DNA of 64,000 nt from Candidatus Absconditabacteria bacterium. GTDB taxonomy: Bacteria > Patescibacteriota > Gracilibacteria > Absconditabacterales > Absconditicoccaceae. Under the pieces are notes generated by a model that had not been told where the DNA came from, did not search any database, and saw nothing but the letters and a program-made list of their open reading frames with translations. The translations under genes were made by a program, and so were the position numbers. Of the stretch, positions 34,508 to 63,285 are shown one piece after another. Location: the NCBI GenBank assembly GCA_028693445.1, contig JAQUVI010000001.1:372001-436000 (forward strand), written 5' to 3'. Within the stretch, counting starts at the first letter, position 1; each line of letters starts with the position of its first letter.

Positions 34508-34603
34508 TAGTGTTTACTATTTCAAAAATCTTATATATTTCCTTGATAAAAAGTCAGAATTAATTAAAGAATTATGTTGATATTTTATTTTTTATTATAT
34601 TGG

Positions 34604-36397
34604 ATGTATCGTACGCATACCTGTTGACAATTGACTTGAAAGAATATAGATGAAAATGTGATTCTTTCATGATGGATAAATAAAGTGAGAAATTTAGGAG
34701 GAATGACATTTATAGATCTTCGTGATAGATATGGGATTACTCAGGTAACATATGATCCAAGCAGACATAATTTTCCATTACCAGAAATAAAATCAGAATA
34801 TGTAGTGCAAATTTCAGGAACAGTTGTTTCTAGGCCAGATTCTATGATAAACAAAGATATGACTACTGGCGAAATTGAAATTTCGCCAACAGAAATAAAA
34901 GTTCTTTCTACATGCAAAGAATTGCCATTTCCTATTGATCATGAAGCTCCTGTAGGAGAAGATATAAGACTAGAATATCGTTATCTTGATCTGAGGAGAG
35001 AAACTATGAAACAAAACATGATTGTTAGGCACAAAATTTACACAGAAACTATCAAATTTTTTGATCAAGAAAATTTCCTTCATATAGAAACACCAGCATT
35101 TGTAAAAAACACGCCAGAATGATCTAGAGAGTTTATAGTTCCTGCAAGATTTGAACCAGGTAAATTTTTTGTACTTCCTCAATCTCCCCAACAACAAAAA
35201 CAAATGTTGATGGTGGCAGGAATGGATAAATATGTACAGATAGCAAGATGCTTTCGTGATGAAGATCCTAGGGGAGATCGTCAACCAGAATTTACGCAAG
35301 TTGATTTTGAAATGTCTTTTGTAGAGCAACAAGATGTTTTGGATATTATTGAGAGATATTATTTATATATTACCAAGACAATTTTCCCTCAAAAGAAAAT
35401 CACACAAGAACCATTTCCTATATATACTTGGTATGAAATGATGGATAAATATTGATCAGATAAACCAGAACTTAGAACTGCAGAATTTGGATTTCAAGAA
35501 CTTAGTGATCGAGGAAAGACTTTGGATTTTGGATTGTTCCAACAATCATCTTCTATCAAAGCAATTTTATTACCAAAATCTCTTAGTAGATCAGAAGCAG
35601 ATAAATACGAATGATTTCTCAAACAATACTGATCCAAAGGATTGGCTTGGTTGTCAATGACTTCTGAGTGACTCAAAGGATCTATATCCAAATTTATTAC
35701 TCCAGAAGCTTTGGAAAAATTACCAAATAAACTCCAAGGAGATTGGACTTTATTGTTTCAAGTAGGGGAATGGGAAGATGTTACAAAATATCTTGGAATG
35801 CTTAGAACAAAACTGATACAAGACCTTGAATCTCTAAAAGATAAAGAAAATGAAGTAAGTTTTGCTCATATAGTAGATTTTCCGTTGTTTGAGACAGGAA
35901 GTGATTGATCGCTTGGTGCTGTTCATCATCCATTTACAAAACCAAAAGATGAAGATATTCCATTTGTAAAAGCATTAGGGAAAAAGATGAGTGAGGGTTG
36001 AGTAATGACAGAAGAAGATAAACAAAAACTTTTATCTATCAAAGCCGACTGTTTTGATATTATTTTCAATGGTAGTGAGGCTTGATGAGGAAGTATTAGA
36101 ATTCATGATAGAGAGCTGCAACATGCAATATTTGCAATTTTATGACTTTCAGAAAAACAAATACAAGAAAGATTCTGACATATGCTCAAGTCATTTGAAT
36201 ATGGAGTACCGCCACATGGTTGATGTGCGTTTGGATTGGATAGAACAGTTATGTTATATCAAAATATGGAAAATATTCGTGAAGTAATCGCTTTCCCCAA
36301 AAATCAAAAATATCGCGATCTTATGATTGATGCTCCAGGAGAAATTGATGAAAATCTATTGAGCGAATTATGATTATCAGTTATTAAAAAAGAATAA
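34604..36397 (+). CDS. aspS: Aspartyl-tRNA synthetase
   Basis: 597-residue class II synthetase. N-terminal anticodon-binding OB fold ([34 protein letters not shown]), motif 2 [19 protein letters not shown], bacterial GAD insert, and motif 3 GVPPHGGCAFGLDR. The start at 34604 restores the canonical YRTHTCG opening with Gly as TGA; an ORF caller using the standard code would start late. Full length. Confidence 0.96.
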
Positions 36398-36420
36398 TCT
36401 TTAATTATTTATATTTACAC

Positions 36421-36555
36421 ATGTTCTTAGATCCTTTTTTCCATCCACTTGCTTGGTGATCTCCAGGGGGAGTTGGGTTTTTCTTACTCTGTCTTGGTGG
36501 ATTTATCTATCTTCTTAGTTTAGCTGATAGAAATAAAGTAAAAGCAAAAAAATAA
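36421..36555 (+). CDS. Small membrane peptide, 44 aa
   Basis: MFLDPFFHPLAWGSPGGVGF then LLCLGGFIYLLSLADR and a lysine-rich tail KVKAKK. One hydrophobic helix with a positively charged end. Starts 23 nt after aspS and is followed by a strong terminator, so it is likely a real last gene of the aspS operon. Family not recognised. One TGA codon. Confidence 0.6.
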
Positions 36556-36562
36556 TTAAATA

Positions 36563-36594
36563 AAAAGCTCACAGAAAAACTGTGAGCTTTTTTG
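36563..36594. terminator. Terminator after the aspS operon
   Basis: AAAGCTCACAG-AAAAA-CTGTGAGCTTT stem with T-run; A-run on the other side lets it also serve the convergent surface-protein gene. Confidence 0.85.
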
Positions 36595-36610
36595 GCTTTT
36601 GGAAGTTGGT

Positions 36611-38437
36611 TTATTCTTTCACAAACAATTTGGTTTGTGAAAGGGTTTCGTTTGTTATTAGATATACTCCTTTTTCTAAAAAGGAGATATCTATAACTTT
36701 ATTTTTTTTGTTTTGAAAATCGCTTATAATGATTTTTCCAAACAAATCAATAATTTTTATATTTCCAAATCCTTCAATAGTTATACTTTTTTTTGCAGGA
36801 TTAGGATATATTTTAAATTCTGACTTTGAAACTTTTTGTATCTCTATTGTCGATACGTCAATAGTTTCAGAGTTTTGACAACCATAAATATTTTCAACCA
36901 ATACTGTATAGGCATCATTTTGCAATACAACAATTGTTTGTGTTGTATCTCCAGTTGGTGACCATAAATATTGGTTAAAACCACTGCCAGCGTCAAGAAT
37001 AACAGAATCATTTAGATTTGTTTCTGTTATATGAATTTCTGGTAATTCATTTACAATCAAATCAAATATCAATATACTATCACACCCCCATTGAGATTGT
37101 AGAGTGTCTAGGTAAGAGCCAGATTCAAAATATTGTTCTCCCTGCCAGATGATTGTGTCACCTTCGCAAATATTTGATTCAATTGTGGTTTCATATTCGT
37201 TGTTTACAATCAAATCAAATATCAAGATACTATCGCACCCCCATTGAGATTGTAGAGTATCTAGATAAGAACCAGATTCAAAATATTGTTCTCCATGCCA
37301 GATGATTGTATCACCTTCGCAAATACTTGATTCAAAAACTGTCTCATATTTCCTAAAGACAGTTAGTTCCAGTGTTAAAGTACTATCGCACCCCCATTGG
37401 TTGTTTAAAAAATTTTTATAAGTACCATTGGCGTCATATACTTCTCCTTGCCAAAACACAAAATCACCTTCACAAATTGTGTCAAAAAATATTGTATCAT
37501 ATGTTGGCATAATATTTAAAACCAATGTATTTACACTATCACAACCAAATTGAGATTGCAACGTGTCTGGATAAATTCCAGACTCATAGTAAATTTTCCC
37601 ATTCCATTCATATCCATTGCCGTAATCACATATATCAACAAACGAACTTGTTTGGTGATTTTCTACTGTTACCTCAATACTTTTTGTAACATTGTCACAA
37701 CCAAATTTTGAAATAGCAGTAGCTGTACAAATCATAGTTTCGGTTGGGGTAAATAGGATATTATTTTCAATACCGTTATCCCAGTATACATTTGATACAT
37801 AACTAGTATCAATTATATATACTTTTGCTTCTTGCCCCATACAAACAGTAGTGTCATTGCATATTTCCAAAACAGCTTGTGGAAATACAGTTACTTTTAT
37901 GCTGTCTTTTTTTGCAACGCATTGATTTTCTACTGTTGCCACGTATGTTTTTGTTGTATCTGGAACAAAGTAAATTCCATTTTCTACATTGTTGTCCCAA
38001 TATATTGTACCATTGGAATAATATGCAGATAATTTTATACTTTCACCCTGACAAATACTAGTATCACTTGAAAGGTTGATTGTAGGTTCCAAAATTTCTT
38101 CTATTAAAATAGAATCTGTTTCAGCACTAGCATGATTATTGCTAATGACTACATGATACCAACCAGCATTTATATTGTGCCACCATATAGTATCTCCAGT
38201 TCCATTTAATTCTGATTCAATATTTTGTTTATTGCTTTTTAGTTGATAAGTATTTTCTATTTCAGAATTTTCCAAAAATAAAGAAACTCCATCATTATAA
38301 AAACAGAAAACACTGTCAGAGTGTTGTAAATTATAAATGTTTGGCAAAAGATAAACAAAGCATGTATCAGGATAAGTGTATTGATATATACTATTGTTTT
38401 TTGTTGTACTGGCTTTTATTTTTAGTTTGATTTGAGC
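36611..38437 (-). pseudogene. 5'-truncated Bacteroidota-type surface protein with type IX sorting domain
   Basis: About 608 codons open, yet no ATG and no signal peptide: the frame enters after TAA at ~38438 as AQIKLKIKASTTKNN; the first near-start is TTG at 38345-38347. Contents: Ig/PKD-like segments with paired Cys (SICQGESIKLS, TVCMGQEAKVY), then repeats ending in GCDS (51-residue period), then a C-terminal sorting domain KIYPNPAKKSITIEGF...KGVYLITNETLSQTKLFVKE (as two parts), as used by the Bacteroidota type IX system. It contains no TGA codon and only GGN glycines, unlike every native neighbour. Probably a transferred, N-terminally truncated gene; no T9SS components are visible here. Confidence 0.8.
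37051..37356. repeat. 153-bp tandem repeat inside the surface-protein gene
   Basis: Two nearly identical units starting at 37051 and 37204 (period 153 bp, 51 residues) encode ICEGDTIIW.GEQYFESGSY followed by LDTLQSQWGCDSILIFDLIV. Two or three more diverged units precede them in protein sequence. Confidence 0.85.
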
Positions 38438-38470
38438 TTATACAATAGCTTTATTATATACAATTTTTTA

Positions 38471-38989
38471 ATGTGGAAACGATATATTATTGCAAAAGAT
38501 AAAATCTGATGAAATTGGCTATTTTTATTGATGGTTGCTTTTTTGTATATACTGACAATAGTTTTTGATTTTTCTAGTTCTATAATAATACTAAAAACTT
38601 TTTGAAAGATGTTTGTTGAAATTTTACCTACATTATTGTTGATTTCTTTGTTTATTTTTTTGTTTAATATTCTTGTTTCAAGCAAAAAAGTAACTTCATA
38701 CCTCAAAAAAGGGTGATATTTCAAAAAAATAATTTTCTCTGTTGTATTTGGTATAGCATCTTCAGGGCCTATATATTTATGGTATTGATTATTGAGAGAT
38801 TTGCACAAAATCGGACTAACTTTGTGACATATAGCAGCATTTAGTTATGCTAGAGCCATAAAAATACCAATGCTTCCGATAATGATTCTTTATTTTGGCA
38901 TAAAATTTTCTCTTCTTTTCATAGTGGTTTTATTTTTCTTTGCTTTTGTACAAGGATTTATTGTAGATTTTATTTTTAAAAGAATATAA
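38471..38989 (+). CDS. Putative permease-like membrane protein, 172 aa
   Basis: About five membrane helices. FGIASSGPIYLWYGLLRDL...GHIAAFSYARAIKIPMLPI resembles the SSGPxY and Ile-Pro-Leu motifs of the YraQ/ArsP-type permease superfamily (DUF318). Shorter than typical members (~300), so it may be a half-size form. Contains several TGA-Gly codons (native), in contrast to the adjacent truncated gene. Substrate unknown. Confidence 0.6.
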
Positions 38990-56927: not shown

Positions 56928-57449
56928 ATGAAAAGAAGTATTTTATTAGTAAGTTTTTTCTTTGCAAAAATTTTTGCATTGTTGAGCTATTTTGATGTAG
57001 GTATTCCTTCTAATATGCTTTATATATGCATAATAGTTACAGGAATATTGGGACTTTTATTATTAATAGGTCCATATAAGTCTAAAAGAGATACAAAACG
57101 AATCAGAAGATCAATTATTTTTGTATCTTTATTTACATTATTGTATTATTTGATATTACCTGTCTTTGAATATATATTTGTGACAGAAAATTTGAAAAAT
57201 ATACTTGTTATAAATTTATTTTTAGGCTTTTCTGTTCTAATAGGTATTTTGGTTGGAATATCTGGCGAATATCTAGAATTTAAAAGACCTATTCAAGCTA
57301 GATGGATTTGTGTATCAAAATTTCAATATTCTAGAATAATTTTTTCAACAACAATGATTATTGTTGCTATTGTATCAGCAGGTTATATTAAAGCTGGAAT
57401 TCCTATTGATGGTATAGCTATTGCTGCAATAATAATTGCTTTCCCATAA
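56928..57449 (+). CDS. Membrane protein, probable import, 173 aa
   Basis: Four to five helices (ILLVSFFFAKIFALLSYFDV, GILGLLLLIGPYK, VSLFTLLYYLILPVFEYIF, MIIVAIVSAGYI). No TGA codon; one CGA (DTK-CGA-IRRS) in an Arg-rich stretch where Arg fits better than Trp. A-rich leader aaaaacc...aaaaattATG as in Bacteroidota. I group it with the other standard-code-like genes. Function unknown. Confidence 0.6.
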   Translation: MKRSILLVSFFFAKIFALLSYFDVGIPSNMLYICIIVTGILGLLLLIGPYKSKRDTKRIRRSIIFVSLFTLLYYLILPVFEYIFVTENLKNILVINLFLGFSVLIGILVGISGEYLEFKRPIQARWICVSKFQYSRIIFSTTMIIVAIVSAGYIKAGIPIDGIAIAAIIIAFP

Positions 57450-59606: not shown

Positions 59607-60860
59607 CTATACTTCTTTTAATAAATCAGTTATGATTGTATTAGAAACATCCATTCCTTGATCAGTCAATAATAATCTATCATCAACATCATAAAGCAAT
59701 CCTTCATCTTTATAGGATTCAATAATCTCTTTATAATTTGTTACCAAGAGGGGAATATATTTTTCAAGATCAGTTACTCCCGTATCAGTTCTAAGTCCCA
59801 AGAAAAAAGATTCAATCAACAAATCTTTTTGGGTCATAAACGTAGTTTTCTTTGAATCAATATAGTTGCCCTTGATATATTCCACGAGATTTGATGTATT
59901 AGTCCATCTCAATGCTTTCACTTCTTTATTTGTTTTTTCAAACCCTAACCCACCTAATTTATCTAATCCATCTAATCTACTAAACGATGAAGCACTAGGT
60001 CAAAATCCTATATAATTTTGCATAGTTCGATAAACTCTATTGTGAATACTACTTACTCCAGGTTTGGAAAAATTAGAAGATTCATATCTATGATATCAAG
60101 CATCCAAAATTATATCTTTGAGATAAGCAAATTCTGTAAAAATATCGTCATCACTTCCATAGTAAGTTCCAGAAATTGCTTGATCAGGAGTTTTGCTTTG
60201 CCACTTAGACCCAGGAAATAATTCCAGAGTATAAAGTGAAAAACTATCTGCAAATTGACTCTTGGCGAAACGATCAAAAAAATCTATTTTCCCAGGATCC
60301 CAAAGTTGGGCTTCGCCCTTCCTCGTTTCGCCAAACTTTCCAAACGCGATAAAATCAAAATTAAATACCATATTTTCTTGTTTAATTTCCCTTAACCCTC
60401 TGATAAAATCAGTCAATCCCGCAAAACTCACTGGTCTTCCTACATCTTGCAAAATTTGATTATCAAAAGTTTGAATACCAAAACTAAATCTAAGTCTCGG
60501 TCGTTTTTTGAAATGTATAAAAAAATAATTGATCAAATTATAAATTTCCTCGGTAGGGTAGGGATTAAGTTCAATATTAAGCTCCATAACTTGGCTTGTA
60601 TCAAAATGTTGTCCAAGAAAATCCACGATTCCCGTGAGTTGCTCCGGACTCAATACATTTGGTGTACCACCACCAAGATAAATCGTTTGAATTTGTTTAT
60701 TGACGATATGTTGTGCAGTTTTTTCTATTTCTTGATACAATGCTTTGAGATAATCATCAATCATTTTATCTTTTATTTCCGGATTAAGAAAAAAACTATA
60801 AAATGAGCAATACGGACATTTCTGAGCACAAAATGGAATATGTATATATATTGAAGTCAC
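59607..60860 (-). CDS. hemW: HemW-like radical SAM enzyme (coproporphyrinogen III oxidase-like)
   Basis: 417 residues. Radical SAM CxxxCxxC in [39 protein letters not shown]-terminal [18 protein letters not shown], where the conserved Trp is CGA (60027-60029). HemW is thought to be a heme chaperone rather than an oxidase. Presence in a reduced genome suggests heme use or a moonlighting role. Start ATG 60858-60860. Confidence 0.85.
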
Positions 60861-62751: not shown

Positions 62752-63285
62752 ATGAAAAAAATTATTTTATTAGTTTTTATGTTGGCATATGGAAATATGT
62801 ATGCTCAGCTGCTAAGTCAACAAATATTTGAAGATACAAAACAATCAGGTTTTTCTGTGGAACTGGGAAATTTAGTAGTTATTGTCCCATCTGCACCTAT
62901 TGAAAGGCAGTGTCAGTTTGTGGCTTATAGATCAGTAAATAGTCCTTATTTGGAAATGTTTGATCAACAATTCTTTGATACTGCATTTATTGTATTATCT
63001 CATTATGATAATAGTGAGATATTTATGCTAAAGAATTGGAGAGATATGTTTTCTTCTGATGGTAATCTTATTGTCAAAGAAAGATTTGTCCGCTTTTTGC
63101 AAACAACTAATGAAGATTATAATCTTTCTACCAAAATGTTGTTTTCGAATAATACTATGGAAGTTTTGCAGATTGGTAAGGTAAAATTGCATATCTATAA
63201 GGAAGCAATCAAAAAAAGAAAAAACAAGATTGGTCCGATTCCTGATGGCTACTATTACATCACAACTAAGCAACCCCTGAATTAG
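62752..63285 (+). CDS. Secreted protein of probable Bacteroidota origin, 177 aa
   Basis: Signal peptide MKKIILLVFMLAYGNMYAQ (Bacteroidota-type AxAQ end), then LLSQQIFEDTKQSGFSVELG. No TGA, no CGA, all Gly GGN. A-rich leader aaaaacaaaaaatcATG. Ends in TAG inside a terminator stem. Function unknown. Confidence 0.72.
   Translation: MKKIILLVFMLAYGNMYAQLLSQQIFEDTKQSGFSVELGNLVVIVPSAPIERQCQFVAYRSVNSPYLEMFDQQFFDTAFIVLSHYDNSEIFMLKNWRDMFSSDGNLIVKERFVRFLQTTNEDYNLSTKMLFSNNTMEVLQIGKVKLHIYKEAIKKRKNKIGPIPDGYYYITTKQPLN

Follow-up and report, generated by a model that had tools for sequence, protein, structure and literature searches.

Standard-code genes with type IX sorting domains persist in the recoded genomes of Absconditabacteria

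Genomes of one family of Absconditabacteria (SR1), a lineage which we take to read TGA as glycine and CGA and CGG as tryptophan, keep a set of genes written in the standard code. The set has been passed down at the same loci, under purifying selection and for so long that synonymous sites are near saturation or past it, and its genes differ from native ones by a distinct kind of leader. We favor, with moderate confidence, the explanation that this is a host-directed gene set, kept by the recoded lineage and translated in a Bacteroidota host, and that an open frame at positions 36611-38437 of the window (the whole stretch of DNA analysed, 64,000 nucleotides) is a broken member of it.

A truncated adhesin frame between recoded genes

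The features of the window are listed here by position.

34574-36397, plus strand: native left neighbour, aspartyl-tRNA synthetase (named by eye from sequence); 16 TGA among 43 Gly codons
36562-36594, no strand: hairpin with flanking A and T runs, terminator-like, read by eye
36611-38437, minus strand: 5'-truncated T9SS-cargo-like adhesin frame of 608 codons, ending in TAA, with neither start nor signal peptide
36635-36811, minus strand: T9SS type A C-terminal sorting domain (residues 543-601), by PF18962 and TIGR04183
37058-37669, minus strand: GCDS repeat region (about residues 257-460), read from the translation, limits by eye
38471-38989, plus strand: native right neighbour, membrane protein with TGA and no Pfam match; 6 TGA among 12 Gly codons
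53486-54082, plus strand: gene of the standard-code class with a Bacteroidota-like signal peptide (MRKIFFFLLLIATIGVEAQ); 0 TGA among 8 Gly codons, A-rich leader; weak alone (P = 0.008)
56928-57449, plus strand: membrane protein of the standard-code class; 0 TGA among 11 Gly codons, one CGA in an Arg-like context (TKrIRRS), A-rich leader
62752-63285, plus strand: secreted protein with signal peptide MKKIILLVFMLAYGNMYAQ; 0 TGA among 7 Gly codons, A-rich leader; weak alone

Under code 25 and code 11 alike, the frame at 36611-38437 (minus strand) runs for 608 codons without a stop. The initial annotation had described about 600 codons free of TGA with all glycines as GGN, and this holds: none of the 35 Gly codons is TGA (P = 1.1e-9, given the TGA share of 0.445 in the sampled part of the window genome). 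The frame also contains 13 TGG and no CGA or CGG. The proposed C-terminal sorting domain is matched by Por_Secre_tail PF18962 at 42.4 bits (E 9e-11, residues 543-601; cut-off 27 bits) and by TIGR04183 at 32.5 bits (E 6e-8; cut-off 23 bits), and the GCDS repeats are visible in the translation. Because the frame opens right after a TAA at 38438-38440 and its first Met is only residue 199 (or a TTG at 38347), it lacks a start, a leader and a signal peptide, as had been noticed. Among the marks of T9SS type A cargo, the sorting domain is thus present and the Sec signal peptide is absent from this frame, which is a 5'-truncated relic of a surface adhesin. The Bacteroidota type of the cargo, the truncation and the suggested pointer to a Bacteroidota partner are all supported.

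The flanking genes are rich in TGA glycine codons on both sides, in agreement with the same annotation. The start of the right neighbour sits 34 bases from the truncated 5' end of the fragment, and the hairpin separates the fragment's 3' end from a small plus-strand frame at 36421-36555. The contig measures 444,707 bases and both of its ends are far from the frame; ARAGORN, run with the bacterial code, found no tRNA genes in the 64-kb window. The suggested search for a donor was made: a scan of genome contigs gave no relative, phage and plasmid searches gave one distant match each (24-28% identical), and no close homologue of the fragment appeared in these searches. The window genome encodes two further sorting-domain proteins above the cut-off, both with a signal peptide and 0 TGA.

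Sorting-domain genes across the family

Sorting-domain proteins occur in 30 of the 49 genomes of the family and in 41 of the 242 sampled from the whole class, 12 of those 41 lying outside the family. Homologues within Absconditabacteria, which had been named as evidence that would speak against transfer, therefore exist for this kind of gene, mostly intact and many of them syntenic. We entered 95 places and left four weak family places and one outside the family (G116) out of the fetch; the outcomes are counted over the 68 family places above the cut-off. In 55 of these frames, from 27 genomes, TGA never encodes glycine (0 of 2,800 Gly codons). The other 13 comprise one that spans an N gap, four with one or two TGA near an end and eight that truly carry many TGA, and the latter two groups count against our preferred explanation. 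Frames with many in-frame TGA, such as L107 (G068:C2), L063, L068 and L097, are either weak matches or relatives written in the native code.

Of the 66 family frames with at most two TGA, 58 begin with a signal peptide as judged by a simple hydrophobicity rule, and the proteins contain Ig/PKD-like repeats (Ig_7, PKD_6). They are like the T9SS type A cargo of Bacteroidota in their Sec signal peptide, repeats and C-terminal sorting domain; they differ in lying in recoded SR1 genomes behind TTGAC/TATAAT promoters instead of TAnnTTTG. The type IX translocon is likely absent from the family, since SprA (TIGR04189) was found in 0 of 49 genomes, a result to be read with the fact that no control genome gave a match either.

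CGA and CGG keep their standard meaning, and the class extends beyond cargo

The accessible text of PMC8629427 gives the prediction that CGA and CGG are translated as Trp in Absconditabacteria. In alignments of native genes, CGA stands opposite W 215 times and CGG 40 times, with R outside the seven commonest partners; this signal is clear in most genomes and weak in G008, G032, G027 and G068. In cargo genes the partners of CGA are R, Q, K, A and H, and it is W that falls outside the seven commonest, though two cargo CGG do align with W. Cargo CGA codons lie in the n-regions of signal peptides (MKrIIFLF), within the sorting-domain motif (DMIGrQL, DIHGrQV, DHLGrMV) and at C-termini (FIKr, FMKr). 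In the orthologous pairs of families D, E, F and G, CGA is paired with R, Q, K and others, never with W, and one CGA is common to both family E copies; in families A-C, the oldest, CGA is nearly absent and Arg is scarce as well. With Arg-like contexts and R, Q and K as ortholog partners, the cargo genes use the standard meaning of CGA and CGG. This holds for the class of genes; the window frame itself has neither codon.

The standard-code class is not confined to cargo. In a sample of G017 (20 stretches plus three fetched for cargo genes; 439 kb, 346 genes, TGA share 0.65), 29 genes are free of TGA at P < 0.01, among them purB, purC, prs, ndk, a radical SAM enzyme, a methyltransferase, DUF5662 and UPF0182. 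These 29 genes have 26 CGA/CGG against 146 TGG, whereas the native genes of G017 have 660 against 472. TGA-free genes of G000 include purA and PhoH. Both CGA codons of NDK align with Arg of the solved relative 3pj9, and two of the three in purB fall on the Arg of LRR and LRNLGVP of solved lyases; judged from these alignments, enzymes of the purB/NDK type would probably be dead if CGA were read as Trp. PHROGs matched two of ten non-cargo TGA-free proteins, a sigma factor and PhoH.

A second sigma-70 factor, which by eye resembles the Bacteroidota primary sigma, occurs in about nine family genomes (L306:17608-18465 in G034; L312-L319). It is TGA-free with CGA at Arg in G034 and TGA-free in G064, and it carries 3-12 TGA in seven others. 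We considered the G034 copy as a host-directed factor and set this aside, its relatives in other genomes being mostly native-coded.

Cargo genes share A-rich leaders and parasite-like promoters

The 681 native starts have almost no Shine-Dalgarno sequence and instead show a T-rich tract around -23 to -19, centred near -21; five-base Shine-Dalgarno motifs precede 1.2% of native and 7.8% of cargo starts. The leaders of cargo genes, counted for 51 of 58 starts after seven with a doubtful start codon were left out, are A-rich: A occurs at -6 in 80%, -12 in 69%, -13 in 67% and -3 in 61%, compared with 35%, 33%, 31% and 43% of native leaders. In the G017 sample, A-rich leaders precede 25 of the 29 TGA-free genes and 90 of the 308 native ones (p = 2e-9); in G034 the counts are 8 of 11 and 51 of 228. 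Adenines at exactly these four positions promote initiation in Flavobacterium johnsoniae, and A-3 and A-6 likewise help in E. coli, as stated in the accessible part of PMC6847099, so that an A-rich leader is no proof of a Bacteroidota ribosome. Leaders of 26 Bacteroidota cargo genes have a similar but weaker A profile.

Upstream, TTGAC is found within 250 bases of 34 of 51 cargo genes, against 10% in shuffled sequence. It is often part of ATTGACTTTT followed by TATAAT at the usual spacing, and the arrangement is common to unrelated cargo genes from many genera. The Bacteroidota promoter TAnnTTTG, which we had expected if the host expressed these genes, was not found to be enriched upstream of cargo genes (14%, with 19% for native genes and 38% for the 26 Bacteroidota leaders). 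The existence of two promoter kinds explains why E. coli genes stay unexpressed in Bacteroidetes, again in the available text of PMC6847099. From the TTGAC/TATAAT promoters and A-rich leaders together, transcription of the cargo looks parasite-like and its translation host-like. The rarity of TGA as a stop codon was also considered as evidence and was dropped, given that Bacteroidota cargo genes seldom use it either (2 of 31).

The genes are old, which weighs against continual influx

An all-against-all comparison places many cargo genes in orthologous families at the same chromosomal sites.

Family A: G017 and G034; syntenic
Family B, a three-gene operon: G015, G024, G061 and G059; syntenic, the last gene also copied in G064, G063 and G032
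Family C: G024, G061, G060 and G059; syntenic
Family E: G023 and G068; at the same chromosomal sites
Family G: G000, G002 and G001; syntenic

Orthologues within families are 30-72% identical. Their dS is 1.2-3.7 or saturated in families A, B, C, D, F and G, and dN/dS, where computable, is 0.06-0.19, with 0.42 for the G000-G002 pair; the mostly low ratios place the cargo proteins under purifying selection. The few synonymous changes or sporadic presence that would mark recent transfer are thus not what we see, dS being high or saturated in these six families and A, B, C and G being syntenic. Over the same time, Gly columns of cargo orthologues changed among GGN codons in 36-68% of cases and to TGA never, whereas in flanking native orthologues 31-79% of the Gly columns hold TGA on one side or both. 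Across 54 cargo pairs, TGA is found in 0 of 1,776 Gly-Gly columns, against 3,703 of 7,741 in 533 native pairs. Since orthologues with near-saturated synonymous sites still lack TGA, its absence is no sign of recent transfer.

The alternative of continual influx, in which DNA of Bacteroidota prey or hosts is taken up (ComEC, type IV pili) and genes are repeatedly replaced before TGA accumulates, strikes us as rather unlikely, although it finds real support. Uptake of host DNA has been proposed for Vampirococcus (PMC8080830, in its accessible text), a few cargo genes end in TGA, purB is found in only 5 of the 49 family genomes, and purA and PhoH in G000 are patchy or of undefined spread. (We had considered purB as proof of synteny between G017 and G034 and set it aside, the neighbourhood being shared but the gaps different.) The synthetase beside the window frame offers a further point in its favor: its orthologue in G002 is 82% identical, and the gap downstream holds different TGA-free minus-strand genes in the two genomes (36400-38470 in the window genome, G000, and L088:3648-4352 in G002). 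Read by eye, the G002 gene encodes a signal peptide and is preceded by an A-rich leader and a TTGACTTTT promoter, and with this other TGA-free gene in the same place the gap seems to be a slot that takes in standard-code genes.

Influx is harder to reconcile with syntenic orthologues of such depth and constraint, and with a promoter motif that is common to unrelated cargo genes and unlike those of Bacteroidota. In the family C tree, a branch (95/97) separates the six SR1 rows from the seven of Bacteroidota, in an alignment with sparse columns and long Bacteroidota branches, and the nearest Bacteroidota protein in a public scan is about 30% identical over most of its length. Repeated replacement also sits poorly with the 57 reciprocal orthologue pairs of the G017-G034 sample, in which 53 have TGA in both copies, three in neither, and only one is mixed (HU, 0/7 versus 1/8 TGA).

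High expression does not account for both codon changes

The genes could instead be so highly expressed within the SR1 cell that slow TGA and CGA codons are avoided, an unlikely account in our judgment. Its best support comes from the S-layer-like proteins (L076, L157-L178), probably the most abundant in the cell, whose TGA count varies between lineages from none up to 17. S-layer-like genes have 0 TGA in 7 of the 16 genomes read (G001, G008, G011, G013, G015, G023 and G028), some of the seven having been read partly, and because these are native genes the absence of TGA alone is weak evidence in those genomes. GroEL is likewise low in TGA in several genomes, and the TTGAC/TATAAT promoters of the cargo genes are strong. 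Against such selection, GroEL and S-layer genes are TGA-rich in G017 (43 of 54 and 17 of 65 Gly codons), where cargo genes have 0 of 64, 0 of 42 and 0 of 135, and in G022 (26 of 48 and 15 of 61), where cargo has 0 of 36. The S-layer leaders are of the native T-rich kind, and the class includes purB and DUF5662, which seemingly have no need for such expression. Expression level, moreover, cannot explain CGA at Arg sites, which avoidance would leave unaccounted for.

A very unlikely alternative is that CGA and CGG are ambiguous in the SR1 cell and that the class consists of old transferred genes with inert codon usage. Ambiguity through U34 wobble has been discussed for this group in the accessible portion of PMC8629427, and in some genomes not every native CGA site corresponds to W. 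TGA, however, can arise from GGA by a single change, and native orthologues have gained it freely in the same span of time.

That Bacteroidota contigs were joined or binned with SR1 contigs is less credible still. The window genome scored 6.15% contaminated, G064 has stretches with a very low TGA share (0.03), and one cargo frame sits on a contig that bears no native gene; yet TGA-rich native genes flank 45 of the 55 TGA-free frames on both sides and nine on one side (one on neither), and the same sites recur across different assemblies. With these frames, including ones in the one-contig genome G002, enclosed by native genes, the chimeric join that the annotation had asked to exclude is very unlikely as a general cause. 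The annotation's own proposal, a single transfer from a Bacteroidota partner followed by truncation, stands for the truncation and the Bacteroidota type of the cargo and fits the lack of a close homologue for the window copy, but as an isolated event it is refuted for the class by the 30 of 49 family genomes that carry such proteins. We give it almost no weight as an overall account; for the window copy by itself it may still hold.

A gene set probably directed to a Bacteroidota host: the proposed reading

We return to the preferred explanation, a standard-code set kept for translation in the host. Its products would come from ribosomes that use the standard code, in the simplest case those of a Bacteroidota host. 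This accounts most simply both for selection against codons which would be misread only on a standard-code ribosome and for export signals of use only to a type IX cell. Besides its ribosomes, such a host would contribute Sec export, a type IX translocon and the attachment to the surface for which the sorting domain calls. The cargo transcript is probably made in the parasite, as the promoters resemble those of the SR1 cell and not those of Bacteroidota, and RNA or DNA would then be handed from parasite to host. In this way the parasite would decorate the host surface with adhesins, and, in the manner of phages, it may boost nucleotide synthesis in the host, although purB and similar enzymes could work for the SR1 cell instead.

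In a bolder form, which we put forward tentatively, SR1 would transcribe a standard-code regulon marked by a TTGACTTTT-type promoter and an A-rich leader, and the messages or genes would pass to a living Bacteroidota host and be translated there; the host would display the adhesins via its own type IX system and make the nucleotide enzymes. This would be a bacterium-to-bacterium equivalent of T-DNA in which the code difference keeps the two gene sets apart. Our search for delivery machinery identified none: TraG-D_C has matches in 45 of the 49 family genomes, mostly weak and none clear, and genus g16, to which G017 belongs and which shows the pattern best, has no match.

Agrobacterium keeps, in its T-DNA, genes built for the expression system of its host. 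The SR1 set is alike in its host-type translation signals and code and differs in a promoter that is not host-like, in the lack of any identified border repeats or transfer system, and in being known here from sequence alone. Recently transferred host genes in CPR bacteria share the Bacteroidota origin of the domains, whereas the SR1 set is old, syntenic and under purifying selection. The nearest published idea that we found, on the accessible text of PMC10746230, is that of phages of Absconditabacteria/Gracilibacteria which are code-11-compatible, avoiding in-frame TGA so as to fit both codes. The SR1 standard-code genes avoid TGA likewise; they are single genes and small operons at chromosomal sites in place of phage genomes, and they do not fit both codes, since CGA stands for Arg in some of them. 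Our search found no paper on Absconditabacteria and type IX secretion and, going by search listings alone, none on standard-code genes in Absconditabacteria genomes.

If the host-directed explanation is true, the code change is a direct, sequence-readable label of the parasite genes meant for the host, and the hosts and effectors of uncultured CPR bacteria could be read from their genomes. It would also be the first case, so far as the literature searched shows, of a cellular genome that keeps one genetic code for each of two cells. Should translation in the host prove wrong, long-lived standard-code genes in a recoded genome would still require a new explanation.

Some further observations touch on these subjects. 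The TGA-free purA, purB, purC, prs, ndk and PhoH of G017 and G000 (L266, L277, L279, L274, L081, L082) recall the metabolic genes of phages. Sorting-domain genes are also present in families f7, f10, f12 and f15 (L116-L134; 12 sampled genomes), where a few of them stop at TGA and continue beyond it when read in code 25. Within the window, a HemN-like radical SAM protein at 59607-60860 has only 2 TGA among 29 Gly codons, low for the window genome.
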